Source of the DNA: Macrotrachela quadricornifera
Taxonomy: Eukaryota > Rotifera > Eurotatoria > Philodinida > Philodinidae
NCBI GenBank assembly: GCA_022393335.1
Contig: JAJEKB010020675.1
Location: forward strand, 193,194-257,193
DNA: 64,000 bases
Direction: 5' to 3'
Made by a program: the position numbers and the translations under genes. Below are positions 3,331-59,196 of this stretch, in pieces (positions within the stretch are counted from its first letter, which is position 1; each line of letters begins with the position of its first letter). The notes under the pieces are model-generated. The model did no database searches, had not been told where the DNA came from, and saw only the letters and a list, made by a program, of their open reading frames with translations.

Positions 3331-4994
3331 TAACACTCGAAATTGTTCTTATTTTTATTCGATTTTATCTAAAATATTACAGTGGTAAAGTGTAGAAGTC
3401 GCACTTTAACACTTAAACTTCAAAAAAAAAATTAAAGTTAAAGTACTTCTACAATCGCTAAAAAACAACCATGTTCAAAACTTAAGTCATAATTCAGCCA
3501 CCAAACTGAGGGCGTTTGAGTACCCGCTTGGCTATCCTTGAAAGGGTACTTGGATCCTCGTTTGCTTGAGAAAATTGTGTTACTTTTCGAAACTCAAGTT
3601 GCTATATTTTTCAGGTGCTGATGAAACAGTCTTATCTCTTGCATCTCATCTATCACAGATAGATATGTACCAAAACCAAAACTTTTGGTTTTGGTAGTAT
3701 TGCTTTTGAGATATTGGTAAAGAAGCTGATTTTGAAACAATATTCCTAAAACGCCTTCCTACAATTATTCTTATATTTGTTACCTTGAAATGAGCTTCTC
3801 ACATAATAGTATATAACGATGAAAAGCAGATGTGTTCTAAAAATTATATGTTTATAATGATGAAAATGTTATGTGAAGAACGAACTACATCTTAATCTTG
3901 ACAATGCAGCCTAAAAATATAATATTTGGATAGATCAATATGGTGTTAACATTCTGAATGAAGAAAGAGAAAGATTTTCTTCGGAATAGTCTTTCAAAGA
4001 TGCCGGAGTAGAAATTAAGACTCAGAGAATGTTAGAATTTTAATGAGTTTTATAGAATTTTTTTGTAAAAAAACATTTCATTTTTCATAGATAATGTCAC
4101 CATATAGATCTGTTCATCTATGAAAGAATGAGATCAATCAAACTCATCACATTGAAGTCGATTAATGAAAAAAAAATAGTTTGTATATATGTGGAAGTTC
4201 GTGCACTGATCCAAAGTCGATAAAAATCAATCAAACGAAATTTGACAATATAGTTTCAAACTGAAAACAATCTTTCAATGCTTCTTGTTTAGTATGACTT
4301 ATTAAAAATATGGAATTTTTAGTTTTTCTGAAAAATATTGTCAATAGCGCATATAAAAAAATTTCTTTACGATAAAAACGTATCTGAAAAAGAAATCGTA
4401 CCAAAGTCGTATCTTCAAAAGTGCTTGCTTCAATTTTTTGTAGACTTAAGGTACCTCACTCAAAAATGAAATTTCCTTTTTCATCATCCAATCTCGATAA
4501 AATTTTAAGCTGAAGCATATCTTGAACCAGGCATATTATGCTAAAAAATTCAGCTCAAGACATTGAGACTGTTGAAAATTAACTTAACCTTAAACATCAA
4601 GATATAGATTTTTATGCATCATAAATTTCTCCATCATTGTAGATGCCAAAAACCTCAGACTGGTTTTAAAACGTATAAATAATAGTTGGACTAGAACTCA
4701 TTCGAGACAGATTTTTCAATTTTTAACAGTTTGTTTTAACAGAAAGCTTTTCTGGTGAAATATCAAAAAAACGAGTAGTACATTTAAAAACACTTAGTTT
4801 TTGCCAAACCTTAAATTAAAAATTTGATTATTAGATTCTCTTAAGTTGTAAAGTTAAGTATTTCTGTCATCTTAAGATCACGTTCATCTTGTTAGTTTTC
4901 TAAACATTGCGTTCGAAAATGGTAAAGAAATCCAGAAAGAATTGAATATCGAAACCAGAGATAAAACCAATTCTGGCAGCTAGTTGCGTGTACA
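3331..4994. other. Intergenic region with small palindromes
   Basis: No coding sequence was recognised. There is a loose inverted repeat at about 3386-3460 (GTAGAAGT...ACTTCTAC) and a perfect palindrome at 3668-3696. The rest is AT-rich with homopolymer runs. Confidence 0.5.
3668..3696. repeat. Perfect 14-bp inverted repeat with 1-nt loop
   Basis: TACCAAAACCAAAA is followed by one C and then its exact reverse complement. No element ends or target duplication are visible around it. Confidence 0.85.
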
Positions 4995-5023
4995 GGATTT
5001 ACTGCCGTGGGATTTACTGCCGT
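4995..5023 (+). repeat. Left candidate terminal repeat of the 16.7-kb block
   Basis: A 14-bp unit (GGATTTACTGCCGT) occurs twice with one G between the copies. The reverse complement of the same doubled unit lies at 21684-21711. The two sites match at about 27 of 29 positions and point inward like terminal inverted repeats around the transposase, DUF3987, RPA1-like and PrimPol-like genes. No convincing target-site duplication was found outside them. Confidence 0.55.
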
Positions 5024-6019
5024 AAATAATTTTTATAACGCGCCTTGTTTCAAAAAACAATTAATTAAAATCCTTGTTTCAAAAAAGAGTTAATTAAAAT
5101 AATTCGCTTCCCACCCCCCCCCCTCTGCTCTCTTTAAAGATGTAAGAGATTTACAAAAAGGAGAAATATATTGAATAGTTGTTGAATTCTTATTTTAGAG
5201 CGGCACCGTATATTTTATAATAGAAAAAAAAAATTGAATTTTATTGTTTTATACGATACAGTATTCTTGTAAAGAATGAATTTTTATATTTGAGTGATGA
5301 ATTGCGTTTTTAACGTTAATCGATAAAAAGAATGCAATAAATTGACTCTTATTATGTGGATATATGCATGCTTATTGTATGAATTTTACTGTACTAGATG
5401 AATGAAATCGTTTTATAAATCTATCAAATTTAATACTTTATGATAAATCTTATCTTTCGAAATGCAACGCAAAAAAATAGATATAGTGAATCTATTTTGT
5501 GATCGATTCTCAATTCAAAAATATAGTATTTGTTATAAAAACAATGTCGTATTTGAAATTACATAAATCAATATTTGTTGTTTATATGAATAAAAAAAAA
5601 TCCCAATTATAAAGAAAAAGAATTGGATTGATATAAAATGAGTTTTCACAAATTGATTTATCAATTTTATGGAAGATTATGCTGCAATATGTTAATCAAT
5701 ATAATTTGAGAAATGAATGCATGTATTATGTTAAATAAAATTATTTTAAAAAAAGCGATATGTTAGAAGAAAAAAATGTCAAGTAAAATCTATACAAATT
5801 ATAGGAGTTTATATTTATGCAAAACAGATTAGATAGGATATTCATTTTCTTGAAACAAATTCTTTAATAAAAATAATTGTATATCATAAAATAGTAAGAA
5901 AAAAAATATTAATATGAATGCTGAATTATTTGTTTCAGTTTGAAATTGCTCAATTATTAATACGATGTTCTTATATCTTTTAAACAAAAAAATGTATATT
6001 CGATCTTAGCGTTTGTTTA
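5024..6019. other. AT-rich non-coding region
   Basis: It contains a short tandem repeat of about 28 bp near 5042-5100 (TTGTTTCAAAAAA...AATTAAAAT, two copies) followed by a C-run at 5108-5116. No gene was recognised. Confidence 0.5.
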
Positions 6020-6910
6020 CATATATCCCATGTGCTCAACTGCGGTCAAACTGCGGCGCAGTTGCGTCGCAACTGCGATCGCACTGTGACCCGTAATTGC
6101 GAAAAACTGCGGCGCAGTTTTAGCATTTTCCGCAGTTACGCGCAACTGCGTCGCAGTTGCGGTGCAGTTGCGACGCAGTTTTGCGTAACTGCGATCGCAC
6201 TGTGACCCGTAATTGCGAAAAACTGCGGCGCAGTTACGCGCAACTGCGCCGTATTTTCAGCATTTTCCGCAGTTATGCCGCAATTGCGATAAAAAAATCG
6301 CATTTGTAACAGAAGACGCCCAGTCAATATCAGCATTTTCATAATAAATAAAAAATAAATAAAATTTAATAAATTAATAAAACTAAATAAAATCTAATAA
6401 AAATAATAAAATATAATAAAATTAATAAATTTTAACAAAATTAATAAAACTAAATAAAATTTAATAAAACTAATAAAATGTAATAATTTAATAATTAATT
6501 AATTAAATATAATAATTTAATGATTAATTAATTAAATTTAATAAATTAATAACCATTAATTAATTCATAATCATTAAATAATTATTAATTCATCACTTAA
6601 TACACCATTGCATTGATTTCTTTTTTAGAAAAAAGAATGATGCATCTTTCTCATTGTAAAAAGTTGAAATGAGATAGAATGCTTGTGACAGTTCCTTTTA
6701 TACCCCCATGCGTCAATCGAAACTACGACGACTGCGTCGCAGATGCGAACGCAACTACGCCGCAGTCAAGCGCACTGCGGACACTGTGTCGCAGTTGCGT
6801 GCAACTGCGGAGACTGCGTCGCAGTTACGCGCAACTGCGCCGCAGAATCGCGACTGCGCGCAACTGCGACGCAGTTGTCAAAAAAGTGGTGACATGGGAT
6901 GCCTTTGCAT
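6020..6910. mobile_element. Foldback element with GC-rich palindromic repeats
   Basis: The ends are inverted: ATCCCATGT near 6026 and ACATGGGAT near 6892. Inside each end lie 160-230 bp packed with short palindromes of the type AACTGCGNNGCAGTT. The left arm holds a tandem duplication of period about 116 bp (copies starting at 6071 and 6187). The middle (6330-6600) is almost pure A/T built from AATAAAATTAATAAAA units. The local composition jump and mirrored arms suggest a non-autonomous DNA element with minisatellite arms. The open frames inside are translations of repeat and are not genes. The target duplication is unclear: AT flanks both ends. Confidence 0.65.
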
Positions 6911-9835
6911 ATGTATTGTATCATGCATTTATTAATTTGTTTCTCGCTTTTTTCTTTTTAAATTAATGGATAAATATACTTTTAATGTTTCTACTTCACT
7001 ATAGAATTATAGAAATCTATGGCTAATTCCTAATAAAATGAAAACTGATATATTTACTGATTAATAAAAAAAATTAAATATATAAAAAGAGAATATTGTG
7101 TTACAGATGATGTTCATCAAGAAATTGGTTATTTTCAGAAATTTGAGATGATATTGAAAATTTTTGTTATGTTTAGAAATTTTTCTCTACAAAATGAAAA
7201 AATTATATTTGTATTCTTTTCTGTTTTTTTTTAAAGCTTTTAGTATTACTGTATTAACATCTTTGTTTCTTATAAATAAAATAATTTTACGCATTTGAGA
7301 CAACTTAATATTCCACTATTAAGTTATTAATCGGTAAATACTATACAATTTATAATAGTGTTTAATGATTATTCTGTGTATTTTGTAAGCTGGTTTTAAG
7401 AATAAAAAAACCTAGCGATAAAAATAAAATATACATTAATATTTAAAAAGAAAAGAATCTATTTTATATAACTAATATTAATATAAAAGAAGTCTATATC
7501 TATTTTTCGTATGTAAAATATACTAGTTTTATTAGTAATATTCGATCCTACTAAAGTCTTTCAGATGTAGAAGTATGCATTTTGCGCGATTTCGAAATTT
7601 CAACAGAACTAAAAAATAATAAAAATATGATGTCAAGAAGACTTATAGGTCAACCAGGATAAGGTTCATATTGCAATGACGTCATGGAATAGTCAAGTGA
7701 ATCAGTATAGAACAATATTATACATACTTTTTTTAACAAGCTCGTATAATTGATCAAAGCACTGCTAGCCTTAAAGTAAGAATAAACTACGTTAAGGTTT
7801 CATGGTTTGTTGGTATATTTATTGAAATGATATTTATGTAAATAGCTTAATAAAATAGAGCATTATTTATTTAAAATGAATTTATTCTCTGTTTCAGCTA
7901 GTCAAGCATTTATTACAATAGCTAGTAGACGATTTGCTATCGTTCTATGACAGCACTATAATATATGTTAATATTGAACAATCGACATATACGTATAAAA
8001 ATATACATGTATGGTTCTTGATAAAATCAGTAAAAAGTAATAAAATCTGAATATATCATTAGAGAGATAAAGATTAATAACTTAAATAAATACTAATTCA
8101 TTCAATAGCAGCTTTCCTCCTTGATGCTACATTAATAAAAACACTGAGGAAAATACTTAACATCAACTGTATAATTACTTATTTTTTTTTCAATAATTGT
8201 AATCCTCATATTATAAATAAGATAGTGACGACTTTTCCAAACGATTATTCACTAGTCTATTAATACTATATTTTTGTTTTGTTTATCTTTCATGTAGAAA
8301 ATTTCTTTGTTTCTTTTTTACATATACTTTATCTATTTTTTATAATTTTTATTATTATTCTTATAACCAGCATGATACTCGCATTCAAACTCTATAATAA
8401 ACAATTAAAATTTCTCCAATTTCTTAGGATAAGATTGAAAATCATTTAAACCAATCAAGTATTATTGAATATACGTTTATAGATATCAATATTGGTTTCA
8501 AGAAATATATCACATTGTTTCGCAACAGCATTTTAAAAGAAAAATATTCCCTAATAAGCATTTGGAAAAGATATTAATATTAGTAGAACACATAATATTA
8601 TATGAATGTTCAAAAAATGAAACATACTGAGTTTAATTTTGATATCATGTGTTTTACAAAAAAAATCCATTTAAAGACAATAAGATTTTACATCAACTTT
8701 TTTTTTTAGTCCTTGTAACTAATAATAGATGATAGATTATCAAACAACATTGAGAATTATTATAATTCAAATATTCTATTATGACAAACTGAATTTATAA
8801 ATAACCATTGAATAAATAAATAATTACTTCTTCTTTTCAAATTTAATATGAGCTGCACAAAATAAATGATGACAGTAGCAGATTAATAATTATTGTTTTT
8901 TAATATTTATATAGATATATATAACTATTATATGTATCATATTATAAATCAGTTCTGTCAAACATTACATATTAACTTTGAAATTCAATAATATTATAGC
9001 TGCCAATCGCCTGAAAATCTCGTAATTATACATAGTAAGCGACTCCTCTATATTAGTATTAAATATAGAATCACATTTTCTGTTTACATGAAACAATCAA
9101 TCAACAACACTAAAATAAAAAGTTTACTATATACATATAATAAATAAAAAACATAGATTACGATTATCGCAGACCATACTATCATCCTCAAATTACAATA
9201 CGTATTATTATTTCAATCAAAAATATATCAAATTTTATACAACATCATATGCTGAAAGAAATGTATATTATTTTAGTAATGAAAAAGATTCGTATAGAAA
9301 ATCATTTTTTTAGAAGAGCAAATTCACAAAAGTATTCAGTTATATTCTGTTATAATAATCTCAAGTACTATACTGCTTTATAAAAAAAGGCACTAAATTA
9401 TTAATTTATTCAACAAATAGCCATATTCATAATACTATTTTTTAATGAATATACATTTGTATATACATAATATAATATAATACTTAAATTAAAAAAATCG
9501 TTTCAATGTCCAGTACATTCCATTCTCGAATAGAACACATGTATATATATTTGCTGTGAATAATCGTATCTAGATCAATTCTCTCATCAAATAATTTAAA
9601 CAATTTCAATATAATAAAAATATTTAAAACATTATTAAAATCAATCAATATTTTTTTGCTATTTTAAATAATATGAACAAAAACTAAAAATAAAGCAAAA
9701 CATTATTTAGATTAATCTTATGTATAAAATCAATAAACTTCCTCTATAAACTTCTGTACCATACCATTTCAATTAGTTTGAATGTATATTTAATTTATAT
9801 TCAGAAAAAATAAATAGATTTATCAGTTTATTACT
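6911..9835. other. AT-rich non-coding region
   Basis: About 2.9 kb with no open frame over about 60 codons and no recognised RNA gene or repeat structure. Confidence 0.5.
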
Positions 9836-11731
9836 TTATTCAATTTTCAAATATTGAAAATAACGAAGTCCTGCACCTTTCAAAAATTTTTCTCGACTAA
9901 TCTGATTTTTTTCTAATTTATCCCATAAACGACATAATGATTCTTCAGCTATTCGAATCTTTTTTCGTCGTTTTGGTGCAGCTGCTCCTGCTTCATGTCT
10001 TTGTCTTTCATCTGATGCTAACAATTGTTCATGTTTGAACATATCAATGCACATGTAAATATCATTATGAGGTTTCGTAGATCTTTTTTTCCATCTATTA
10101 TGACGTCCTTCAAGATAATTAATTGTACGAGGATTAAGATTTCGATAGTGATTATACATTGTTGATGGAAATCTACTATTAATACCATATGTTTTATTAT
10201 GATATTCTAAAAATAAATCAATTTCTTTTTCATATAACAATGGTTTCATTGAACGTAGATATTCAATTGCTTCGGCCATATCGATTTCTGGTAATAGTGC
10301 AATTGCTGCAAAACTTCTGAACCAAATACGTAGAGATTCATCCTCTTGAAAAGCTGTTTTTAAATTCAAATTCATGAAGTTCCGAAAAAGTGCTTTTCCA
10401 TAATGAAAAAGACACCCTTTAACCTACATAAATATTAAAAAAACAATAATGTTAAACTATTACAAAATTATAAAATTTTGCTTTTTAATTCACTCTATTT
10501 TTATGGATTATATTTACAAAAATCGTATTTTATTTATAAATACTTATTTTATCTGTTTTTCTTAAATAAGTTGATATCAATTTTTTCTAAAATTTGGTTA
10601 ATGAAATAGTTTTAGAAAAGAAATAATTGAAAATGATATTCTTATATAAATAAACTTTAAATAATTGAATTTTTATCTTACTTTAACATGTGGATAATGT
10701 TTATCAAATACATTTTTTACAGCAACTTCGAAGTCAATAGTAATACATTCAAGTTGAATCATATTTGATGTTTCTTTTATTTTATTTATTAATATTGAAA
10801 ATAAATCATGATAAGTTGCTTCAAATTTATCAGCTAACAATGCAAAAACACAAGGTGTTGATAATCCTACATCAAATGCATGTATGCTGTATATTTGATA
10901 AAATATGGATGGTGAAGTATAAAACGTCCCATCTGCATACCAGAATTTTTGGAATGCTAAATATTGAATATCTTCTTGAGAGCAAAATATTAAACCTCGT
11001 TTTTCACCTAAAAGTCCATCAAATAAAAGAAATTTATCATTATTTTTAGTTAATGTGTATAATAGTGGAAGTGGAAAAGGTAAATCATCAAGTAATTTTG
11101 GTAATCGTGGTCTAATTCGTCGACGTTGTTTACTAACCGTATTTTTTAATGTCTTTATTGTAGGTAATTTTACGATTGAATCTGTTATTTTTTCTTTTGT
11201 AATCATATTTGAATAAGAGAATTCGACTATTTTATCAATTGGTTCGGAACTTGTTTGTGCTTCATGCTTTAATTTATGGCGAAGCTCCAAGAGTTTAATA
11301 TCATTTAAATCAATAAGATGATTATGGTTTTCATTTACTTTTAGTATAGTGTCATTATTTGAAATTGAAACACTTGCAGGACAATTTCCTTTGGTACATC
11401 TCCATAAAGTCGAATTTAAATTATTTTGTTTTACACAAAATCTTGCACCATGAAACACTAATTGACGTTTTCCATGCGTTGATTTAATATAACTAATATC
11501 TTTATTTGTTGATTGTGAAGCTTAATAAAAGGACAAATGTATATATATATTAAACCTCATTAGAAAATGAAAACTACAATATCTCAATATTTTTTTTAAA
11601 TAAAACGTGATTGTTTAATACATGAAACTTATTCAATACGACATATAGGATATTTATTTTGACGAATATATAAGAATAAAAATTTATAAAAATAATCACT
11701 TAATTGATTAAAGAGAAAAAAACATACCCAT
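9836..11731 (-). CDS. MULE-type transposase with FLYWCH-like zinc finger
   Basis: Three exons on the minus strand: 11731-11728, 11520-10682 and 10423-9836, with introns 11521-11727 and 10424-10681 that have GT-AG borders. The exons sum to 1431 nt, exactly 476 codons plus stop. The N-terminal part has a FLYWCH-like finger (WRCTKGNCPASV, then NENHNH). The MULE core follows with a probable DDE triad: Asp in WYADGTFY, Asp in ITIDFEVA, and Glu in NYLEGRHNRW. A GCLFHYGKALFR motif spans the second splice junction, which supports the intron. The tail is basic (PKRRKKIR). The four-base first exon (ATG plus one base) is the weakest part. MULE transposases cut and paste DNA at terminal inverted repeats; FLYWCH fingers bind DNA or protein. 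It diverges from the DUF3987 gene. An intact triad and frame mean it is either active or domesticated. Confidence 0.85.
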
Positions 11732-12541
11732 TTCATTTGTAGTGGTAAACGATATATTGTATTAATTTCTTAAATAAAAAAAAAGATTAAGCATAAACAT
11801 AGAGTATATTAAATAGATCTAATCTCTACCTTTTTTTTAAATTCTTAATTAATAAATAAATTGTAATTTATAAAACTGTTTTTCTTATAATGAATGACTT
11901 TTTTTTTTGAAATACAACATATTATATATATAATAATTTGATATCCATTGAAATATATGATCTCAATCAATTATCGGATAGAAATGATGAGGAAGTAATA
12001 CTAAAAATAAATCGATTCAGTGATATACTATAAAGTAATCAATGTAATCGTGAATATAACTTTTTGAAGATTCTTCTTTTACATATGGAATAATATAATT
12101 ATTCATTAGTAATAAATTTTAGTTCTGTCATTAAGAAAAAAATGAATTATGCTCAATTTTTTTATGATATATTAGTTTTATTTTTATAATAAATTCTTTT
12201 TTATTATCTCTTTCATCTACTCTATTATTTAACAATACATGAAATTAACTGTTCTTATGATATCACTATATATGATTTATAGAGACAAATAATTTTCATA
12301 TTTACCTAAATAAATATATATATTTATCTATAGATTTAATAAATTATTGTGCTCATCTTTTTTCCCTCCTATTTACTATTTGAGTTAATGTTAATTACAT
12401 AAGCACTTGGCGCCGTCTTTTATTCAAAAAAAAAAGATTCACTTTTAATCATTTCACGTCCACTGTTGATCGTTTGGTTGGAGTAAGAGTTGATTTATCA
12501 TTTTCATTAATGCTTATTTATATTATTGATAATAGAAAAAT
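11732..12541. promoter_or_regulatory. Divergent intergenic region
   Basis: About 810 bp separates the start codons of the minus-strand transposase and the plus-strand DUF3987 gene, so both promoters should lie here. It is very AT-rich with long T and A runs. No specific promoter element can be assigned from sequence alone, and a small upstream DUF3987 exon cannot be excluded. Confidence 0.4.
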
Positions 12542-14889
12542 ATGGAAAAGTGTGAAAGAATTAGACGGATGAAGAAATGTTTTAACGAAAAATTGGATTT
12601 AAAACTTATCTTGGATGAATATTCTTTTTTAATAATAAATGGAGTTGCTGAAACAACCAGTATTCCAATACATTATATTTTTTTAACTACATTGATTGCT
12701 ATTTGTCATTGGTCAATGGGAGCTACATTAAAAGGTGCACAGGCTTATAATATACCATTAATTCTCTTTGGTATTTTATGTGGTGGTAGTGGTATGTTGT
12801 TTATTCTTCAAAATAATTAAAAGAAAAAAAGTTGTCCACAAAATCGTTTATAAAGAAAAAAAATCAAATCTAAATATATTTTTTTGACTTATAGTATAAG
12901 AATAAATTCAGAAGACACTTAAAAATAATTTTTTTATTTTTAAAAAATATGAAATGATTTTTCTTATTATTAAAAAGCAGCTAAAACCAATAAAATATCA
13001 TTAACAGTTCTGACAATTTTTATTAATAATTCATTATTTTTTTTTTAAAGGTTCCAAAAAGAGTGCATCCATTAGGATTGTAAAAGAAGCATGTGAAGCT
13101 GTGGAAGCATTAGACACTATTCCTGTGCAGAAATCGTCCATCAATGCTTCAGCCAATATGGAATCATTATGTTGTGAATTGGAGAAGCAGCCAAATTTAA
13201 TACAGGTCTCATATAATTTTATTAATTAAATATCATAAATAAAGTTATTATAGCTTTGGGATGAATTCTCCGTCTTTCTTGGTCTTTTTGGTAGTACAAG
13301 AATTGATAGAACGGCATATGATCGTGGACTGATGTGCGAACTTTACAGTCCAACCGGTATTGTGCGTCGACAATTAGTTAGTCGGCAAAATGTCATGATA
13401 ATACCACGTCTGAATGTTATTGCTGGTGGTCATCCAAAAAAAACGATTGAATGTCTAACAGGTAATATATACCGGAAAAGAACAATAAATATCTTAAACT
13501 GATTTTTTAATATTTATACAATGTCATATACACTTTCAATAATTGCAATTCAAGTGAATTGTTGACATATGTTTTTATAATTCCATATATTAGGATTTGG
13601 TTTGAAAGACCAAGACCAAAATGATGATGGTCTTTTTAATAGATTTTTAATTGCCGTAGCTTATAAAAATCGTCCTAATCGTGATATAGTTGAACCGAAC
13701 AACAAAATTCCGAGCTTAAGTCACCTATTTTATCTTACTAAAAAATTACATCGTAACATCGAAGAATATATATATANNNNNNNNNNATATATATATAATG
13801 AAGAAGGTACTTTCGTTATTACTATAAATATTGACTTATCTATTTTTAATTTATTTAGCAAAAAAGTTTGTTAACGAAGTAATTTATAACTATGATGTCC
13901 TTTCGTCCGATAAATCTAACGATGATGATTTTATTGCAAGGTAATTCATTTGTATATCTATTTCTTAAGTAAATTCATTGACGTTCTAAATTATAGTCTT
14001 TATCAAAAGTCTATTGAACGTGTCGAAAGACTATCACTTGCTTTGCACATTCTTAAAAATAGTGCTCGTCGTCTATTCAACGTTGTTGAAAATATTGAAT
14101 CATTTCCTATGTTTGATGATCACTTTAAATCAATTTGTACAGAGCAGCAATTAACTGAATCTGATCATTTAATTGACTATGATACCACGTTCCGAGCATC
14201 CTTACTCACGAAATTTTATCTTAATCAAACAAAAATACTTGCTGGTTATGATCCTACAACAGATAATGTTATAGGAAAAAATAAATGTAAGTAAATACAT
14301 TGTTTTTATTTTACGGTTAATCGATATATTTTATTTATTTATTTATATAAATTTTAAAAAACAAAATAAAATTAAAAGAGAGAACTAATTATCTTATAAT
14401 TCATTTTCTATATGAATTATGAATTTGAATGATAAATAATAATTAAAAATATAGAAAAAAAATAAATAAAAATATAAAATATTTTGATAGGAAAAAAATG
14501 TTAATCTAGCGCGTATAGCACTTCTATAGTCTTATTTTTTAGATACAATTGATATACCTCCAGAGGAGGTGAATCACATAAAAAAATATATTGAGAATCA
14601 TCCATGTGATCGTCTTCTCTTATCATCATTACCTGCAAATCTTAAAAGAAAAATTAGTAAAGATCAATATTTAAATGTATTACCAGAAATGGAAGAAGAA
14701 GGGAAGGGAAAAATTGAAGAAACAAATAATCTCACAGGTCCAAAAGGAATTGCTTTTATGAAGAAGAAAAACGTTAAGCAACTAACAACTGCATTTTCAT
14801 CATTATCTGAACCATTGACAACTGAAGTTTTATCAATAGATTATGAACTAGGAAATGTACCATCATCAACAAATCATTTTTCTAATTGA
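12542..14889 (+). CDS. DUF3987-type P-loop protein
   Basis: Exon model: 12542-12791, 13051-13205, 13254-13461, 13594 to about 13776 (running into the gap), 13859-13940, 13997-14286 and 14543-14889. All visible junctions are GT-AG and keep frame. The first junction rebuilds a Walker-A-like loop, GGSGSKKSAS, after the segment IPLILFGILC. Further on come LWDEFSVFLGLFGS (Walker-B-like DE), DRGLMCELY and a DGLFNRFLIA motif, in the order seen in DUF3987/YfjI-type proteins. In bacteria and phages these sit beside or are fused to primases and resemble replicative helicase ATPases. The C-terminus after about residue 350 is charged and not recognised. The Walker A has Lys where Gly usually precedes the catalytic Lys. 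The exon border near the gap is unresolved. The family call is from motif pattern; helicase activity is inference. Confidence 0.75.
13777..13786. other. Assembly gap (10 N)
   Basis: Ten Ns lie inside an AT microsatellite near the exon 4/intron 4 border of the DUF3987 gene. The gap hides the donor site. Confidence 0.99.
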
Positions 14890-15005
14890 ACTTGAATATG
14901 TAATAAATATGACGTTTTTTATTTTTACTTAAATTAATTTCGGTTGCAAATGTTTCAAATGATATTCAATAGTTTAGCAATATATAATTTTTTTTTCAGA
15001 TTAAA

Positions 15006-16798
15006 ATGGATGTCCATCAATCTGTAATTGCTATGTACGAAGAATTGATAAATAATATTTCAAATGAAGTGTAAGATATTTAACTTATTATAAATATATA
15101 TATACATTTTTTTTTTTTTCTTTAAATTAGTATTCATTCAACATCAGCTGTATCAATCGAACAAGATTTAACAAATAATATACAAGATCGTGGTAGTCAT
15201 AATGAAGCTAATATTAATAGTAATGATAATGGTGATATTAATCATAATAATAATCCTAATAATAATGATAATGTTGTTGTAAATCATAATATTAATAATA
15301 ATATAAATGGGGCAACTGATCATAATTTTAATCGTAATATCAATAGTAATACAATTGGTACTGATAATGGTAATATTAATCCAAATGATAATAGTAATAC
15401 AAATAACACAATTAATCAATACGATCAAAATCATGGAATAGTAGAAAATTCTATTGAAGTCATCAATATACAAAATAGTATGTTTTATATAAAGATAAAA
15501 ATAAAAATAGTAAAATACAATAATAATAGAAATTGGAGTATTTTTGATAAAAAAAAAGTATTTCGAATGCGCTAGAACTATTTTTATTTCATTCGCTTAA
15601 TATTAGATAATCGATAATTTTTATCTATAACATAAGAATATTATTTTAACATTCATTGAAGATAATGAAACAAAGTTATTAAAAATTACCGAAATTAATA
15701 TTGATATCGATTTTCCGTAAGTTCTTCATTTTCTAACTAACATATTTCTTTTTAAATATATTTTCTGAGCTTATTTTTAATTTATGTAAACTAATTTATG
15801 CATTATTTTATTTATATATATAATAAACAATTTTGCATGATATTACAAAATAATAATTTAGATATGCTATCATTTAAATGTCATCATAAATTATATATAT
15901 TTTTTTCTTTATGTCCTCTTATACATATAATATAGATGGACATTAAGAGCAATTGTTACATTTAAACATCCAAAGAGAACATACTTTAACTCGAATGGTG
16001 AAGGTGAAATCTTTACCTGTGATTTAGCCGATGAAACAAGCGAAATAAATTTAATAGCTTTTAATTTATATTCATACATGATTGCGAACGAACTAATTGA
16101 AGGCAAAGTAATAAAATTTTAGGAAAGAGCTAATCTATTATATATATATATATGTATATACATATCTATTAATAGTCATATGAATTCAATAACTTATCAA
16201 TTCGTACAGTTGATACTGCTTATAAAAAATTACCAAATGATTATCAATTGATAGTTAATAAAACCACTAAAGTACGAGAAGTGATTGTTCTGTACAAATA
16301 TCAATTAATATATAATTTCATTCACTTGCGTGATCTTGAAATATTACCATTAAATTCAATAATTGGTTTGTATTTATTAATAATAACCAATTTTAAAAAT
16401 ATTAATAATTTATTTTATGAAAACTATAATATAGATGTTCAGGTGAAAGTTTTACGAGACTATGGAACAACCATAGGAAATACGAACTCGAATACATGGA
16501 CTAGACGTGAACTTCACGTTAGTCAGGATGAATTTCATATCAGATTAATATTATGGAACGAACAGGTTTTTTTTATATCAATGATTGTTTTTTTTTTATT
16601 TTATTACTGGTAGGCAAAAAAAATTTCAGTAACAATTATAAATAAATATTTAAATTTAAAGTATGTTAAAATTAATTGGTTTAATGGTAAATTGCTTTTT
16701 ATACATTCTTTTTTTCTAAACAATTTTTAATCTTTTTTAAATATTTAGGTTCACGAACACTCATTAGTATGTCTAATACTCGTTTAACTGTTGTTTAA
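15006..16798 (+). CDS. RPA1-like single-strand DNA-binding protein (two OB folds)
   Basis: Eight exons: 15006-15070, 15131-15477, 15662-15716, 15936-16107, 16176-16365, 16435-16565, 16614-16686 and 16749-16798. They total 1083 nt, exactly 360 codons plus stop. The N-terminal third is a low-complexity Asn-rich linker (exon 2). Exon 4 opens with WTLRAIVTFKHPKRTYF, followed by NGEGEIFTCDLADET, the signature of RPA70 DNA-binding domain A. The spacing from EGK to the PNDYQL motif matches the RPA70 pattern only if the fourth intron is removed. Exons 6-8 match domain B (RRELHVSQDEFHIRLILWNEQ split across strands of the fold). The N-terminal protein-interaction OB fold and the zinc-containing domain C of RPA70 are absent, so this is a compact A+B version. 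It lies 116 bp downstream of the DUF3987 stop on the same strand. It likely coats ssDNA for the neighbouring primase. Confidence 0.85.
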
Positions 16799-17304
16799 AT
16801 GATTCTAATACATGAAGCTTGCTAATCGTCACCTCTTCTCTAACTCTAAAAAACGCACAATATATCTAATCATGTCTTAATAATTAATTTTTTAGTTTGA
16901 CATTATTTTAATCAAAACAAAATCTACAAACTGTTTTTCATTTCTTTCAAAAGTGTTTAAATTAGTATATCAATTATATTTCAATATCATAAATAAAACT
17001 AATCTGAAATGTATTTTTAAAACAAAAAGAAAATAAAATTCCTTTAAAAAATCATCTAAACTAACGATAAAATCCTAAATATTTTTTTTTGAATCAATAT
17101 AAATTTAAATGCAAACTCTCTTAATTATAGCATCACAAAACTTCCCAAATACAATTCATATTGATATTCTTTAAATGACTAACTAATCAATACTTTGTTT
17201 TACCTTAAAAAATAATGAATCTATATGAAAAATGAATTGAATATGGCGAACAATTGTATAAACGATATAAAATTGAAACAAAACAGCTAGATTAGTTAAA
17301 ACAC
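16799..17304. other. Intergenic region
   Basis: AT-rich, without a recognised gene or structured repeat. Confidence 0.5.
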
Positions 17305-17585
17305 CACGTGATATTTCAAGATCTATTACACAGATATCATCATCAGATGAAACTATAGACCTTGCACATACATAAAAACCAGTAACTATTAGAAACTAAT
17401 ATAATGTATGATCAAAGAAATGTATAACACATTTAAAATATGAATCAATTTTATTAAATCAGTGAATAATCAGATAGAATTAATTATTAACTTAAGATGT
17501 CTATTTCTATGTACAGCGTCTGGGGTTTCGTCTGATGATGATATCTATGTAATATATATCGAAATGTCACCTCCTGCATTAACTA
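17305..17585. repeat. Imperfect inverted repeat (MITE-like)
   Basis: The left arm (about 17305-17365, containing AGATATCATCATCAGATGAAA) is mirrored at about 17505-17580 (TTTCGTCTGATGATGATATCT). Arms are about 60 bp with scattered mismatches around a central spacer. No target duplication was identified. It lies just upstream of the PrimPol-like gene and might serve as part of its promoter. Confidence 0.6.
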
Positions 17586-17730
17586 ATCTATCTGTTTTAT
17601 TTCAAGTTTATATGAAAAACAAAGCTTCATATATATATATATATGTATATATATTTATTTATTTAAGCGCCTAATAATATTTTCATTTCAAAATAATATC
17701 TAATGACTATATAATGATAACAAGTACATC

Positions 17731-20197
17731 ATGACATTTATTCAAAATTTAATCAAAACGCTTTTTCCACATAAAATTATAACTCATCATTTATCTGACT
17801 TAAAAAATCAATCATTAGATCAACATAATGAAACAAATGATATTTGCATAAGTATAGAAAAAGAAAATAAGTCTCGACAGTATTGTTATCTTACGATTGA
17901 AGAACTAATAACATTATTTCAACATTGTCCTATGTCATATCGAACTTTATATGAGTCCATTCCTCCACACAAGCATGTTAAAACATATATTGATTACGAA
18001 TACTTCATTAACAAAAATCTTGATATAGAAAATCATTATATTGGTCCTATATCTTGTCTTAAAATACTTTATTATTTTCTAAATATTCCAAATAATACTA
18101 TTGATACATTGAAAACTTATACTAATAAGGTTTTAAAACAATTTTTAGTTTTACAAGCGTAAGTGATCATGTTTATTTTTCAAAAAACATAGCATACAAT
18201 CTTTTTTATCACTCGCTCTCTTCAAAATAGAATTTTATTCATTAAATTTCATCTGCTAGATTGGAAATAATAGTGTGATAGGAAGGTATCGCTAAAATTT
18301 CAAAAAGAGTAGATAATGAATTTTATATCAAATGAAAGACCATCAAAAATGGAGTTTATTGATAAATAAATAGTAAGGATTATGAAAACTTTCAGAAATT
18401 CCATACTTTTTATGCATTGAAAAAATAAAATGTCATTAATTCAAAAATAGAGTAAAATCTTTTTCGTAGATATTTTAAAGTGATTTGATAAAGCTCGACG
18501 AATTCTACAAAACAGTATACATGAAAAAAATTTTAGTTAGAGCTGTCGTATAAGAAGTTCCTGAAAACTATTTAGATGATAAACTGAAAAAACGAGCATT
18601 TTTTACATTTGTTATAGGAAAAAAAAAGTATTTTTTATGATAAATTCAGCTGGTTTCAATTAGTATCCTTCTGTAAGATACTTGAAGATATACTCATTCG
18701 ATAGAGTTTTTTACTCTGTATTTAGTGAGTATACTTTGAAACATCAACAACAGTAAAACTAATCAGAAAAGCCTAATTTCATTGAAATTTCGAGTATTCT
18801 CCTTCCATATCAAAAATATAACCTTTTTAAACATTTTTTATGTTCCAAATATTTCTTTGAATTTTTTATCACAAAAAAGGGACTCAGAAAAGTTTTCATA
18901 AATACAGTTTATAGAGGTCGTCTAGCTTTATTGAATCATATAAAAATACCTAAGAAAAAAATTTTACTCTATTTTTGAATGACTGACATTTTATTTTTCC
19001 AACGCATAAAAAGTATAAAACTTCTGAAAGTTTTCATGATTCTTAATATTTATTCATCAATAAACTCTATTTTTGACGAACTTTCAATTGATATGAAATT
19101 CATTGTTTACTCTATTCAAAAATTTAGCAATACTATCCTATAAAATATTATTTTTAATCTAAAATTTTTTTTATTTCTAAATTAATCGATTAAATCTTTT
19201 TGCTAGATCAACAAATGAAAAGATATCCTATCATTTTATACACTCGAAACCGTCAGTTTTATTTGAAAATACATCAACTCTTGGCATTTTTCTGAAAACT
19301 ATTATTCATTTTCTACTATTATCAATTATTCAACATAAATGTACGATGTTTAATATCAATCCACCAATAGAACCATATACAACATCAAATTTAATTCAAA
19401 TCTTAGGTCCCTATGTTAATATATTACGGAAACATTGTACTTCATGTATATCACCAATTATTTATGTTTCAATTGCTGATATTTCATATTTACTTGTGCG
19501 AAGTACAACAAATAAATGGACTACAGCTATTGATATAAATGTTTACTCAAAAAACCAACAATTTCGTTTATTTAATAGTGTAAAATATGGAAAAAACAAT
19601 CCTCTTATTCCTTCAATTATGTTTCCTTTCGATACTCCACTACAATATTCATGTAATGATATTCTTAGAAAATCCTTAATTACTTTAATTGAAAATCATC
19701 AAATACCACAAATTTATTTTCAAAATAAAAAATTTATTATTTCTTTTCCACCCATTTCTATTTCAACAGCTACAATATCACAAAATTTAATAAATATTAA
19801 ATTAATTAATGAGCACATAGAGCATTCATCTTTTCTTAATCTAGATACAAATACTAGTACAAATCAAAATGTCTCTTCTTCATTACATGTAAACAATATT
19901 AATAAACTAGATTTATCTATACCTGACATTCAAATATTTAATACTTTTGTCGAACACATAATTACATCTGATCCAACTCATCAAGGCTATATACAATCAT
20001 GCATCAGAGGAACTTACAATAAAAATGTATTATTTTTTAATATAGCAGGTCATTATAAATACCGTCCAAAGAAAAAAGATCATCATCGACATAACAATGT
20101 AGCTATCATGATAAATACTAAAAACTATACATATAGTATTCGATGTAAAGATGCTGAATGTAATAATACTATCTTGTCTTGGAAAAAAATAAAATAA
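17731..20197 (+). CDS. PrimPol-like archaeo-eukaryotic primase-polymerase
   Basis: Two exons, 17731-18158 and 19207-20197, joined across a 1048-bp intron with a GTAAGT donor and CTAG acceptor. The sum is 1419 nt, exactly 472 codons plus stop. The AEP catalytic motifs appear in order. Motif I DxE is in TYIDYEYF (about residue 90), preceded by LYESIPPHKHVK as in PrimPol. Motif II SxH is in NEKISYHFIH, right after the junction, which validates the intron. Motif III is Asp in WTTAIDINVY, followed by SKNQQFRLFNSVKYGKNNP, a very PrimPol-like run. The C-terminal zinc knuckle has Cys (QSCIRG), His (HRHNNV) and CKDAEC, the order seen in PrimPol/UL52-type primases. At 472 aa it is shorter than vertebrate PrimPol (about 560) and lacks an obvious C-terminal RPA-binding tail. 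Family function: makes DNA or RNA primers and extends them. It may be a host PrimPol paralogue or a mobile-element primase; its context favours the second. Confidence 0.88.
18277..19143. mobile_element. Foldback MITE inside the PrimPol intron
   Basis: The left arm 18277-18540 and right arm about 18885-19143 are imperfect reverse complements over some 260 bp. Matching landmarks include GATAGGAAGGTATCGC against the 3' end, GAGTTTATTGAT, and AAAATAAAATGTCA. The centre (18541-18884) is unique AT-rich sequence. The element fills most of the PrimPol intron and has no open frame. A related arm lies at 26990-27260. The target duplication was not resolved. Confidence 0.75.
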
Positions 20198-20639
20198 ACT
20201 ATTTTCTTTTCATTCAAATAATATATATTCTATTTATGAATATACAAATCTTTTATTCGTTAAAAAATAATAAACTCCTAATTTATTTCTTACAATCTTT
20301 AATCATAAAGCACACTTATCTTTTATGCTTTTCTTTTATTCGCTTCAATCATTTCCTTTTTCTTGCTCTTCTATTTATACTTTTTAATGTATATTTATAC
20401 ATTTTTTTTGTAAAGTTAAAGAGTTCAATATATTAGATCATCAGTATTATGAATTTTCTAATTAGCAATAACAAATCAATTTCATCAATGGCGCGCTTGT
20501 CTTTCGTCTCGTAAACATAACTATCGATCTTCATATCAATAGTTTGTATATAAAAAAATATATTAAAAATTTAAAATGCAAAACTCGCATGTATACAATT
20601 GATGATTATCAATGAAAATTAGTAAGTTACATGATTTAT

Positions 20640-21640
20640 AGTTAAGATAAGTTAATGATCACAAAATACCATTAAGACAAAGGAGTAATATAATACAGTA
20701 CTAATATTCCATTTACTGAAATTACGTACCTTGTAAATTGCTTGATTCAATATATTGAATAACAAAACATCTGAGAAACATTAGAAATAAAAATTCCATT
20801 ATTAAGCAAAACTAAAAAAAATACATAAACTATAGTTACACTTCAACGCACTTTTACAAACGTTTGACATGAAAACTAAACTTTTGACATAGATTAAGTG
20901 TTTTCTTCATTCATAAAGCTCATTACGAACTATAGTTAAAATTCAATACACTTTTACAAACATTTGATATAGAAAATAAATCTTTGACATAGAATAGATA
21001 TTTTTTGTTTACAGCATTCATTACGAACTATACTTAGAAACCAAACGACTTTTACAAACGTTTGACATGGAAAGTAAATCTTTGACATAGAATAAGTGTT
21101 TTTCTATTTATAAAGCTGATTACGAACAGTAGTTACATTCTAATAGATTTCTACGAACGTTTGGCACGAGAAATAAACCTTTGACATAAAATAAATTTTT
21201 TATTCAAATTTATAAAATTCATTACGAACTATAGTTAAAATTCAATGCACTTTTACAAACATTTGATATAGAAAATAAATCTTTGACATACAATAGATAT
21301 TTTTTGTTTACAACGTTCATTACGAACTATAGTTATAAATCAAGCTTACTTTTACAAACGTTTGATATGAAAACTAAATTTTTGACATAGATTAAGTGTT
21401 TTTTTTATTCATATAGCTTATCACGAACTATAGTTAGAAATGAAGCCACTTTTACAAACCTTTGAGAAGGAAAGTAAACCTTTGTCATAGAATAACTATT
21501 TTTGATTTTAACGTTCATTACGAACTACAGTTAATTTTTAATAGATTTTCACGAACCTTTGAGATGAAAAATAAACTTTTGACATAGTAAATAAAAAAAA
21601 AATTCTATTGTGATCATTACATTTATCTAACTTAATCATA
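20640..21640. repeat. Element with about 8 tandem 99-bp repeats
   Basis: Tandem units of about 99 bp run from about 20830 to 21590. The marker CATTACGAAC recurs at 20921, 21019, 21118 (GATTACGAAC), 21220, 21318, about 21419 (degenerate) and 21516, giving a period of 97-102 bp. Each unit carries CTTTTACAAACRTTTGA and YTTTGACATAGAAT. Loosely inverted ends enclose the array: GTTAAGATAAGTTAATGATCAC at 20641 and GTGATCATTACATTTATCTAAC near 21610. The array is probably carried by a MITE-like element. It sits just inside the right candidate terminal repeat of the 16.7-kb block. Confidence 0.8.
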
Positions 21641-21683
21641 TAATTTATTATAACAGAAAATCTATTTGTAAATAAATGTTTAC

Positions 21684-21711
21684 ACGGCAGTAAATCCTAC
21701 GGCAGTAAATC
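21684..21711 (-). repeat. Right candidate terminal repeat of the 16.7-kb block
   Basis: ACGGCAGTAAATCC followed by T and ACGGCAGTAAATC is the reverse complement of the doubled unit at 4995-5023. See the left copy for the comparison. The flank outside it (ATGTAAACC) does not match the left flank well enough to call a target duplication. Confidence 0.55.
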
Positions 21712-24490
21712 ATGTAAACCTCTTAAATGATCAAAATGAGTTCAATTTTGTTCCCTGTTTTTATCAGAAAACATTTCTCAAGACAGCTTAAACAAATACT
21801 GGAACTCATAAGGAAAAATTCTGTCAGAGCGAATCTACACCAAAGATAAAACCTGCATTGATAAAATGTCTGTCATTTATTGGTAACAAATGTTATTATT
21901 TGTCAGAGAAATCTGCGTACGGTAAAAGTTTTAAACGCTGCCGAACTGAGGATTTTGGCTGGACAGAAGTAATCTATGAGTAGAAATCTCTTAGCCGAGG
22001 ATGATCATACAGATCTGGTAATAACCCACTGAAAAAAACGAAAATTTTGCTTCTCAGATAGAGATGACCGCCCGAACATTCCACGGTAGATGCACTCCTA
22101 GTTTCCATCCATTTTGTCGTTCGAACTACACTTGATTTTGATCTTCACAGCAAACAAAAAGAGTAAAGATAATAAAATGTCCATTAGTTTATGGTTGATT
22201 TACTTTATCACCTTTGATACTATTCTGGTAGATACCAAAGTGTAGTGAAGCATTATATTGTTTTCGTCAGATACCAAGCCCGACTGATTCATAGAATAAC
22301 AGTTACAAGTACTGTGAATGCGATCGTATATCGTTGTGCTTGTTTGATCTAAGCATACAGCGAGTCCGATACGAGAATGCGGTTCAGGTTTAAGTCTGAT
22401 TAGAATCGTTAATATATGATTAATTTCTTTTTGATTCATGAATCAAATTAGCATAAAAATACAAATAAGATAAAAATAATCTATCACGTAGATAAATTAA
22501 TAAACGTAATAAATAATTATATCATATTCACTATGGTACGCAAAAAATGAATATTCGTCCTTTAAGTATTTTTTTGACATGTATCTATATATATGATAAT
22601 TAATTTTGCCTTAGCTAAATATAATAAAGTACGATATTGCATTTTTTATATAATATCATGTATTTCTCTTTAGATTTTCTGCTATAATGATTAATATTTT
22701 AGTTTTCATTAATAGTTCATAAAACTTTTTTATGAATTATCCTTTATTTATGATATTTACATATTTTCCATAGTAAAATAGTCTGTGTAAGTTACAGGAC
22801 GATGTTTCACGGTTTTTCACTCTTACTTTATATAATAATCGAAGTTAAAGGTTAAAGGATACGTTTTTAGAAGAATCACATCTATAGATCAGTAATTCAA
22901 ATACTTCTATATTTGTATCAACACTAGAAGAGGCTTCTCCTTATATATCTAAGTAAGTCAGAGTTCAAAGTTTATATTTTCTAGTTTATAAAAAAGATAC
23001 CAATTTTTCATTTAATCTGCTATGATATTGCGTTGGTGAATTCAACTTAATGAAATAAAGTTCTTTTTTTGAGAAAATATTCTTCCGCAAATCATCACTT
23101 TTTCTGTAGGACAAATAGCGATATTTAGATGATAATGATGCATATAAATATGAGTTGTATTTCTAATTAATTTTTTGTGACTTCTGGCCAATCATCTTAA
23201 TTTTTAATAACAAAAAATAAATAACGTAATTTCAAATATTTTATTTAGAGTAAGATGACGACATTATTTATCGTAGAAAATTAGTTTTATTCAGCAAAAA
23301 AAGAATTAAGAACTTAAGGTGAAAATAAATATCATATTTGATGCTATATAACAAGAAGAAACAATCTGATCTCTTTCCTTATTGTAACAAGTAGGTGGAT
23401 TTTTATTGAACATTTTACAGTTTTTCAAAGACAAACTTTAGTTACAGATCAAGATAAATCGTTTTGAATTTTATGAAATATTTTCTAAGCAAACACATCG
23501 GATGATAGATCGATTGATTGATTGTATCGACAAGACTAAAATTGTGATATAATCTAATAAACTTAAAGAATAAAAGATTAATTATAAAGTAACCTTCTTT
23601 TCAACCTGTTTTTGGTCATAAGATTCATTAAATTATCTTGTCTAAGTGTACTGATATTCAAAATTGGTACAATCATGACTTTAATACTATATGTAAATCA
23701 ACATTTCCATTATTCCATGTACTAGATAATATAAGGGATATACAGGATGTAATCTAGTTACGAAAGTCACAACTAATTTTTTAATTTCAAAACTGGTATA
23801 ATCACATCTGTGGCATAGCTCACACACTTGCTGCTTTTAAAAGTTGTACTTTTTAATATGTTTTAGCATAGGAAAAAAATACGAATCTTTGTTTGATATA
23901 TTGCGTTGTTGTAATTGTGCCTCTAAGGAAAATACTTTTTTCATAGCAAGTGTAAATAATCAGAAGAGGTAAAACATAAGGATATTGTAAGTAATAAATA
24001 AATTTTAGCATACAAAAAGGAAAGATTAATAACTGTCATAATGTTTTAGCGAAGAGAAATTTGGACATTAATGGAATATGTGTTACAATCTTAGTTTTTT
24101 TCTTTCATTAAGAGTCATAAGATTATTTTTCAGTTGTTTCATTACTGTGCATATCTGAAACTTATTTTGACATGTAAGATATATTATTACTTCTTTGTTC
24201 TTGATACACTAATTGCGTTAGTGAAATGATTAACTAATACATCTATTGAGGAGATGTACTTGATGAAAGATATCTTTCAATACTATATAGGTATTTTTAT
24301 CTATCGAATTGAATAGAAATTAGTTGATAATTTACATCAATACATGCTTTGTGTGACAAAATTGTTTCACACACATAAATCTAAATTTTACTGTAATTTT
24401 ATTTAATAGAAGAGAAGAAATTACTAATCCACTGTTATATTTATAGCTCTTTTCTTTTTATATTATTTGTATCCATTTTACTTTAGTGCG
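21712..24490. other. Intergenic region
   Basis: No gene recognised. A minus-strand open frame at 22200-22439 has no family resemblance and ordinary AT-rich composition, so it is not annotated. Confidence 0.5.
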
Positions 24491-25591
24491 ATGTCAAATC
24501 AAACATCTGATACAGTTACAAATTTGAAATCAGCAACATATTGGATCAATTTTATAAGCCCAGTACTTCATGCTATTTTTGGAACAATTGGGAATTTATT
24601 GAATTTGATTATATTCAGTCGTCGTTCTTTATGTATCAATCCTTGTTCATTATATTTTTTGATCGGTTCGATAAACAACTTGGTTGTTATTTATGTGTTC
24701 GGATTAGCACGTTATCTTCCAAGTATCTGGAATTTGGATCCATCAGGTGCAAATGCTGTTTGGTGTAAACTACGTATGTATTTGGGATATGTTTCTTTTA
24801 GTCTTGTTTTGTGGTTTCTGGCACTTGCTAGTGTCGACCGATTTCTTTCGAGTTCACAGAATGCGGGACATCGACGATTAAGTAGTTTATCAAATGTTCG
24901 AAAGATTATTATATTTATTACCATAGTCGCTTTACTATTGTATGTGCATATATTAATTTTATTTGCACCTTATCCGAACGGTAATGTGACTGTTTGCACA
25001 TCCATTTACAATGAATATACTGTTTTTCTGAGTTTATTTTTTCTTCTTCTTTCGGTTTTTTTACCACTCATATTAATGAGCATCTTTAGTATATTGACAA
25101 TTATTAACGTTCGTAAAATTCGTACTCGTATTGTTCCTCAAAATAATAACTCACGAAATGACCGACTGCAGTCACATGATCGTCAACTGGTCATAATGCT
25201 TTTAGTTCAAGTGTTGATTACTACTCTACTCGCGACTCCCTTTGCTATTCTTAGTACATGGAGTACATTTGCTTTAAGTATCTTTAAATATAACCTTACA
25301 ACATTTCAACAGGCACTTTATAACTTTTGGTTTGAATTCGCTCGATTACTTTCCTTCAGCAATCCTGTTATTGGATTTTATATTTACAGTTTGACTGGTT
25401 CTAAATTTCGTACTGAAATGAAACAATGTATTAAATATGGATTGAAATTTATTTTGAACTCAATTGGTCTAATGAGATATATGCCATTGAGAGTTCAACA
25501 AGCATTACACAATGTAAATCAAATGGATTCTAACCATGATACTGCAACACAAAATAGAAGAGGAAATGCTATTCAACGTCAAAAACAATAA
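24491..25591 (+). CDS. Rhodopsin-like G protein-coupled receptor
   Basis: A single-exon gene of 366 codons. I chose the ATG at 24491 because the frame upstream has no ATG. Seven hydrophobic segments are visible. TM1 carries the GN pair (GTIGNLLNLIIFSRR) and TM2 follows NPCSLYF. A Cys precedes TM3 (VWCKLRMYLGY), which ends SVDRFLSS, a DRF version of DRY. TM4 follows VRKIIIF, and an extracellular Cys (TVCTSIYNEY) can pair with the TM3 Cys. TM5 ends in a basic loop (NVRKIRTRI). TM6 lacks the usual CWxP. TM7 has SNPVIGFYIYSLTGSKFR, an NPxxxFY-type end. A polar 40-residue tail follows. It resembles the orphan, peptide-receptor-like families expanded in rotifers. It signals at the plasma membrane through G proteins; the ligand cannot be predicted. 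Confidence 0.9.
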   Translation: MSNQTSDTVTNLKSATYWINFISPVLHAIFGTIGNLLNLIIFSRRSLCINPCSLYFLIGSINNLVVIYVFGLARYLPSIWNLDPSGANAVWCKLRMYLGYVSFSLVLWFLALASVDRFLSSSQNAGHRRLSSLSNVRKIIIFITIVALLLYVHILILFAPYPNGNVTVCTSIYNEYTVFLSLFFLLLSVFLPLILMSIFSILTIINVRKIRTRIVPQNNNSRNDRLQSHDRQLVIMLLVQVLITTLLATPFAILSTWSTFALSIFKYNLTTFQQALYNFWFEFARLLSFSNPVIGFYIYSLTGSKFRTEMKQCIKYGLKFILNSIGLMRYMPLRVQQALHNVNQMDSNHDTATQNRRGNAIQRQKQ

Positions 25592-46710: not shown

Positions 46711-47370
46711 GCACTTATTCACTATACTAGGTAAATTTCTTCTTTAGTAAAAACTTCTATTATTATCATTTTTTCAGACATCATTTATTTTTTGGAATAT
46801 AATACTTTTGGATTGATCGCAACTTTTCAGAATAAATAGGTAAGATTCTATATCTCTTTTAAAATCTACGATGTACGTATTAACAAAAAGTAATGATATT
46901 ATTATAGAAGAGAAAATTAAAATGAAAAAGATTAAATTTGATCAAAGATAATAGCAATGAAAAACTTCCATCCATAAATTTGTTTTTTAATATGAGACAA
47001 ATTTTACTTAATTCGAAAAATGCGAAATCATATTTTTCTATTTTACAGAAATTGAAACAATTGCGAATATACATTAGCTACTTTCTAGATGATACACTAT
47101 CAGATTTTTATTCTAAATGTTGAATATTTTTTTCTGGATTTATATCATTAGAGTGTCAAGGAAGCCATTCTTAAATTTCTAGCCTCCACATTAGTGTTTT
47201 ATGATGGCAAATTTTGTAATTGGTTAATGTACAGTGAATGAAATGTTTTCTTGCATCGTGCTTGTTTCTCATTGATCTTTTAATAAATATTGGATTGTGG
47301 ATTTTTATCAAACAGTAACACACGAACAGAACAAGAACAAACCGCGATAAAAGTGCCTGCATCATAGACA
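46711..47370. other. Intergenic region upstream of the beta-lactamase-like gene
   Basis: No recognised gene. It would contain the promoter of the gene at 47371. Confidence 0.4.
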
Positions 47371-59100: not shown

Positions 59101-59196
59101 ACATTCACCATCTAATAAATCACACAATTCTTTAGGTGTTGTTACTTCAGATAATTGTCGAGGTGTTGTTGAGGATCCATTATGAAAACTAGACAT
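50199..59196 (-). CDS. ACACA: Acetyl-CoA carboxylase, multifunctional, complete
   Basis: A many-exon minus-strand gene. The start is MSSFHNGSS at 59196 and the stop is at 50199 after [10 protein letters not shown]. Introns are mostly about 50-60 bp. It carboxylates acetyl-CoA to malonyl-CoA, the committed step of fatty-acid synthesis. The biotin carboxylase domain spans about 59100-57100: [25 protein letters not shown], a [14 protein letters not shown] loop near 58110, and [10 protein letters not shown] near 57605. The biotin carrier has MEVMKM, with the biotinyl-Lys codon at 56157-56159. A long central region follows (55.9-52.9 kb). The carboxyltransferase domain spans 52.7-50.3 kb ([58 protein letters not shown]). 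Oddities: Gln replaces the usual Arg in the NPRLQVEHP box (codon 57619-57621), Cys replaces Trp in VWAGWGH (58654-58656), and the long N-terminal regulatory stretch of vertebrate enzymes is absent. Exon borders are approximate. Confidence 0.93.
56157..56159 (-). other. Biotin attachment lysine codon of acetyl-CoA carboxylase
   Basis: AAA within the MEVMKM box, the canonical biotinylation site of the carrier domain. Confidence 0.9.

Follow-up and report, generated by a model that had tools for sequence, protein, structure and literature searches.

MULE transposons generate target site duplications (TSDs) of 8-11 bp, mostly 9 bp, and their terminal inverted repeats (TIRs) are variable, being absent from some MULEs. 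Polintons (Mavericks) encode a family-B DNA polymerase and a retroviral-type integrase and produce a 6-bp TSD, and Helitrons encode a Rep/helicase protein and have neither TIRs nor TSDs. For the animal MULEs of the Phantom group, a MULE survey gives TSDs of 8-10 bp or none indicated, TIRs of 18-613 bp or none, and one or two ORFs; its main text names neither primase nor helicase, and rotifers are absent from it (PMC6446971). Pack-MULEs carry gene fragments, and none of those first reported was longer than 7 kb (PMC6431247). In its passages on Pack-MULEs, Helitrons with RPA, Polintons and Teratorn (which has about 90 other genes, including capsid genes), the same review of giant transposons mentions no MULE with a primase (PMC6431247). 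The words MULE, Mutator, MuDR and primase do not occur in the main text of a study of bdelloid transposable elements (PMC7943196). Among the matches listed in our full-text literature searches, run on a collection without Repbase and most subscription papers, none describes such an element in its title or abstract.

The window analysed here is a 64,000-nt stretch of the rotifer Macrotrachela quadricornifera (C4275:193194-257193 of a 450,031,034-bp genome in 5695 contigs). It contains an element that is a MULE by its transposase, TSD and TIR, and that encloses a DUF3987 protein, an RPA1-like protein and a PrimPol as well as the transposase (Table 1). The four genes claimed for this block in a first-pass annotation are all present and all read as open frames using GT-AG introns; no fifth gene of at least 120 codons occurs in the block except for frames overlapping the RPA region. 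At a probability of roughly 0.7, we interpret the block as a large autonomous MULE-superfamily transposon of bdelloids whose replication cassette may act on the element's own DNA.

Table 1. Features of the window copy (positions in the window).
Feature	Position	Strand	Remarks
Whole element	4987..21720	+	16,734 bp
Left TIR	4987..5023	+	doubled 14-bp motif (+) at 4995-5008 and 5010-5023; outer border common to 19/21 places
Fold-back insert	6027..6898		872 bp; secondary insertion, outside the family
FLYWCH-MULE transposase	9836..11521	-	exons 10682-11521 and 9836-10423; first exon absent from model
DUF3987 P-loop-like protein	12542..14889	+	7 exons
Assembly gap	13777..13786		10 Ns, in DUF3987 exon 4
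RPA1-like protein	15006..16798	+	two OB-type domains
PrimPol	17731..20197	+	exons 17731-18158 and 19207-20197
Degenerate tandem repeats	20804..21587		~100 bp, n=8; adjoining right end
Right TIR	21684..21720	-	doubled 14-bp motif (-) at 21684-21697 and, with a single mismatch, 21699-21712; border at 7/11 other PrimPol loci

The element shares with the MULE/Phantom-type animal elements the MULE transposase, the FLYWCH finger, TIRs and a 9-bp TSD, but is 16 kb long and has four genes, including PrimPol, RPA-like and DUF3987 genes; the likeness is one of features. Like Pack-MULEs, it places MULE ends around extra genes, although these are whole, spliced genes accompanied by the element's own transposase. 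Polintons are also transposons with replication genes, whereas Pfam detects no domain of a family-B polymerase, an integrase or a capsid protein in the four gene models here, and the TSD is 9 bp rather than 6 bp. Helitrons with RPA also set an RPA-like protein beside a transposition enzyme, and the window protein resembles DUF223; unlike Helitrons, however, the rotifer element has TIRs and TSDs, and its gene models include no Rep/helicase (Pfam). Teratorn, a piggyBac-herpesvirus fusion, likewise pairs a DDE transposase with replication functions that include a primase, but the rotifer element has four genes only.

The window transposase matches the Pfam MULE (PF10551; 40.8 bits, cut-off 27.6, E 3.1e-10) and FLYWCH (31 bits, cut-off 23.6, E 2.8e-7) profiles. 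It contains the motifs YADGTF, ITIDFE and INYLEGRHN, which we take to hold the DDE catalytic residues of MULEs, and an alignment of 10 relatives shows little or no variation in the D, D and E columns. The DUF3987 domain was detected in the window protein (43.9 bits, cut-off 27, E 2.4e-11; Pfam) and in 16/16 relatives. By eye, the window protein has an atypical Walker A motif (GGSGSKKS), and its AlphaFold model reached a pLDDT of 39 and was dropped; both points count against our interpretation. No solved structure related to DUF3987 was found.

The RPA-like window protein matches DUF223 at 23.1 bits, under the cut-off of 24.6 (E 9.3e-5; Pfam), and its gene appears by eye to have a further in-frame intron at ~16366-16434. 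Its tandem DBD-A/B OB folds are recognized through a relative, the rotifer RPA-like/PrimPol gene model P0053, which matches RPA70 structures (E 8.6e-10) as well as human PrimPol structures; P0053 also matches TIGR00617 (2.7e-15), a partial match whose 55.9 bits lie far below the full-length cut-off of 334.2. Pfam gives no domain for the PrimPol window protein, which matches human PrimPol by sequence (E 9e-6), as does a profile of 36 PrimPol relatives (3e-10). In a PDB fold search with a predicted model (mean pLDDT 73), human PrimPol chains took ranks 1-10 (7e-11 to 2e-9), followed by poxvirus and herpesvirus primases; 14/36 PrimPol relatives weakly match Herpes_UL52 (best 0.0012). The DxE, SxH and hD motifs and the C/H/C/C finger, presumably the catalytic motifs and finger of PrimPol, are kept in the alignment where rows reach (by eye), and this protein thus combines the fold and the catalytic motifs of a PrimPol (AEP superfamily).

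The first-pass annotation described a doubled 14-bp motif that returns inverted at the other end of the block; this was borne out, the repeat being longer than noted (36 nt, 92%) and matching at 33/37 positions in 5/5 other copies. With up to two mismatches, the motif matches four times in 64 kb against 0.14 expected, a count reached in 0/100 shuffles; the end motif is not a product of chance. The window holds 12 inverted 36-mers matching at 33/36 or better, four of them of fair complexity and in two clusters: the element ends form the only long-range pair, and the other cluster is a short fold-back at ~39.1-39.5 kb.

Across the genome the doubled motif has 24 exact matches (a reversed control had none), which correspond to 21 places when one tandem run is counted once. 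At 19 of these the sequence continues outward as CGTGTACA and then diverges. The motif had been expected to lie at many places unrelated to the four genes if the transposon reading were wrong; instead the same left end recurs at 19/21 places, although only 8 of the 19 share a contig with a PrimPol locus of the family. The other 11, whose surroundings are contig ends, gaps, stubs or unread interiors, count against our interpretation. Comparison of 18 left ends inward with a full copy (its own end excluded) gave matches of more than 1 kb for 14, including C4062, C4170, C4388 and C4521, which match over 1.5 kb at 92-95% and have no PrimPol match on the contig; of the remainder, one has 47 readable bases and three stop early. 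The latter (C3169, C4465 and C4569) cease to match after 114-151 bp, in or near a poly-C tract located 114-157 bp from the end, and no right end was found within 9.8, 4.9 and 4.9 kb, respectively. We considered whether they might be the same ends around other cargo and rejected this on the early stop and the missing right end, classing them as terminal stubs; their source may be breakage, a replication stop at a G-rich strand or assembly error. One left end (L006, C3756:17234-17307) has a tandem run of five 14-bp motifs in place of the usual pair; the count of end sites can thus vary. At L015 (C4453:325960) and L023 (C5005:416562) the doubled motif stands in another context, without the CGTGTACA border, and perhaps belongs to a related element.

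A search of the genome with PrimPol yielded 81 matches, including 12 loci at which the second exon is 87-99% identical; 11 of these, the window's own and ten others, were read. Co-occurrence of the four genes elsewhere, proposed as a check on the transposon reading, was found: nine of the 11 have MULE(-), DUF3987(+), RPA1-like(+) and PrimPol(+) in that order, and the other two (C4512 and C4106), which carry internal deletions, have lost DUF3987 and RPA but retain PrimPol and the 3' end of the MULE gene. Each of the 10 loci that match DUF3987 at E<1e-20 is one of the 12 PrimPol loci, and weaker matches lie outside them on C4360, C4635, C4653, C4781, C442 and C443. The loci align to the base at both ends, giving the common borders that were sought. 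Five other copies with both ends measure 15,851-16,436 bp, against 16,734 bp in the window. The window's 872-bp insert is absent from C4223, C3294, C5139 and C4582, and C4678 has a different insert nearby. This insert is G+C-richer, has CCCATGT...ACATGGG ends and by eye is flanked by a duplicated AT. The PrimPol intron holds an inverted repeat (18278-19141, 234-nt arms, 84%) that belongs to the family, since the intron is of about the same size in other copies. C2910 has ~7 kb extra between MULE and DUF3987. The contigs C5239, C2058 and C2910 lack one or both element ends, and the right end is absent at 4/11 other PrimPol loci because the contigs stop before it. C5239 and C5240, near-equal in size and coordinates, may be one copy assembled twice.

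Target duplications of the length anticipated (8-11 bp) are present outside the window. A perfect 9-bp TSD (9/9) flanks five of the six copies with both flanks readable (C4223, C4678, C3294, C5139 and C4582), the identical 9-mers being TCTAGATAT, TATTTAAGC, ATTTTACTC, AGAGCACGC and GTTTTTTTT; C4512 has Ns at its right flank. The window copy is the exception, as had been observed from its sequence: its flanks, AGCTAGTTG and TCTTAAATG, differ, and sliding the ends produced one near-match against 2.12 in shuffles, which counts against our interpretation. Empty sites were also looked for and did not materialize at the two sites searched with joined flanks: C4678 returned its own two sides and nine partial matches, none across the junction, and C5139 only its own two sides, a further point against our interpretation. 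The joined flank of C5139 forms one open frame with a CxC...CxH pattern by eye and has no Pfam match.

Ten Ns between two AT runs break the window's DUF3987 exon 4, where 8/8 other copies have one shorter AT run. On the simplest view, two insertions were fused during scaffolding, one contributing the left half and the other the right half, in which case the window's flanks may not be neighbours in the animal; alternatively, recombination between copies may explain the missing TSD. On C4677, 2,855 bp of element and ten Ns are followed by ATGCA, the last five bases of the left flank CATTATGCA, a similar case that is suggestive only.

The element, a MULE that carries a replication cassette, has been mobile in recent times. 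Identity among full copies is 97.8-98.4% (summed BLAST blocks, including some overlapping repeat blocks), and all four frames are open in five of nine copies (the window's own, C4223, C3294, C5139 and C4582); with exons placed by the window model, the other four have stops or frameshifts. Ratios of pN/pS, with intervals from a codon bootstrap that are too narrow because pairs of copies are not independent, were 0.29 for MULE (0.16-0.55; 8 copies), 0.19 for DUF3987 with intron codons removed (0.10-0.36; 8 copies), 0.52 for PrimPol (0.28-1.01; 9 copies, two with one stop) and 0.73 for RPA (0.20-2.82; 7 copies). These ratios show that the transposase and DUF3987 are under purifying selection and were kept working while the element spread. 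The values for PrimPol and RPA are compatible with neutrality and count against our interpretation.

Protein searches yielded at least 62 PrimPol, at least 19 DUF3987 and 52 MULE relatives; for PrimPol and DUF3987, scoring covered the 7996 candidates with the most words in common. Named relatives are from bdelloids (Rotaria, Adineta and Didymodactylos) except for 3/52 MULEs (wasp, nematode and fungus), and many further relatives are metagenome proteins. Eight of 133 relatives each hit a pair of the four window proteins: six are RPA-like/PrimPol models (P0052-P0054 being versions of one gene model), one is MULE/PrimPol (P0031) and one MULE/DUF3987 (P0081). A gene predictor that reads past the boundary between adjacent genes yields models of this kind, which thus reveal gene neighbours. 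The length of the longest contig is moreover identical, within one species, for P0064 and P0083 (DUF3987, MULE; 75,385), P0071 and P0091 (DUF3987, MULE; 13,236) and P0067 and P0035 (DUF3987, PrimPol; 19,436). Among 2,292 pairs with contigs >5 kb, 12 others fell within 100 bp and were unequal, so chance alone would give ~0.06 exact matches.

P0031 and P0081 represent a distant MULE type, 38% identical to each other and each 30% identical to the window transposase. In the genome under study, this distant MULE lies within 12 kb of divergent PrimPol matches at four loci (C4653 and C4127, both within 400 bp, and C2501 and C3585). Even placement of 35 x 50 loci would give 0.09, although this null is crude given the clustering of repeats. 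At 4/4 of these loci the MULE is upstream of PrimPol and on the same strand, unlike in the window element, and C4653 also has a weak match to DUF3987 (E 2e-4) on the MULE strand, still farther upstream. Judged by these matches, the Rotaria and Adineta relatives and the divergent lineage appear again to join a MULE with PrimPol.

Together, the shared ends, the fixed gene order and the 9-bp TSDs at other copies uphold the transposon interpretation of the first-pass annotation. By analogy with its family, the FLYWCH-MULE transposase would bind the doubled 14-bp sites at both ends, excise the element and insert it with 9-bp staggered cuts. With less support, PrimPol may prime and extend DNA on strands of the element that the RPA-like protein covers, and the putative DUF3987 ATPase may unwind or load during this synthesis. 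The gene models include no family-B polymerase, so PrimPol would either synthesize the DNA or hand over to host polymerases. The cassette could copy an excised or nicked intermediate, or fill gaps left by moving 16 kb, in place of reliance on host repair alone; the element may in this way help to copy itself. More tentatively, and at slightly less than even odds, it might be a MULE with a minimal replisome, an independently evolved self-replicating class, parallel to Polintons without PolB or capsid, in at least two bdelloid lineages.

The same ends and 9-bp TSDs require the transposase alone, and an ordinary cut-and-paste MULE could have captured three replication genes that are idle in transposition and help otherwise, in damage tolerance or silencing evasion. 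The weak evidence of constraint on PrimPol and RPA and the deletion forms C4512 and C4106, which lack DUF3987 and RPA, fit such cargo. We nevertheless consider this unlikely: the three genes are whole, spliced, co-ordered, of one function and kept in several rotifer species, the set is joined again to a distant MULE, and DUF3987 is under the strongest constraint of the four.

A MULE together with an integrated viral or plasmid replicon, lying between or beside the MULE ends, is very improbable. It would suit the resemblance of the PrimPol fold to giant-virus primases: pithovirus primases top a viral structure library (best Pithovirus LCPAC101, E 3.9e-12). However, at five loci all four genes lie inside a single pair of ends flanked by 9-bp TSDs, the block has no fifth gene of the size given above apart from the frames overlapping the RPA region, and scans of viral_contigs with PrimPol, the PrimPol and DUF3987 alignments and the end motif produced no relative. 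The predicted PrimPol fold does not itself settle origin, as human PrimPol leads the PDB and giant-virus primases the viral library. PHROGs gave only matches of E>0.06. Two scans of genome_contigs likewise produced no relative, and we rejected a virus or prokaryote origin on the results from these two collections, which may omit near records of the window's genome. Lastly, the idea that dead elements and host genes came to lie together by chance within an accidental repeat, favoured only by the window copy's missing TSD, is refuted by the shared ends, gene order, TSDs and DUF3987/PrimPol co-location of the other copies.

The element, which we continue to read as an autonomous MULE with a replication cassette, unites a DDE transposase and a compact set of replication genes as a single mobile entity; replication, if shown, would justify placing it in a separate class. 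Since nearly identical copies whose frames are open exist in animals that can be cultured, copy gain by a eukaryotic cut-and-paste element through its own DNA synthesis becomes directly testable.

Elsewhere in the window, seven-helix receptor-like frames flank the element on both sides (24428-25591 and ~1379-2265), beta-lactamase-like frames (+) occur at 47368-48930, and an acetyl-CoA-carboxylase-like multi-exon gene (-) spans ~50500-59250, all by eye.
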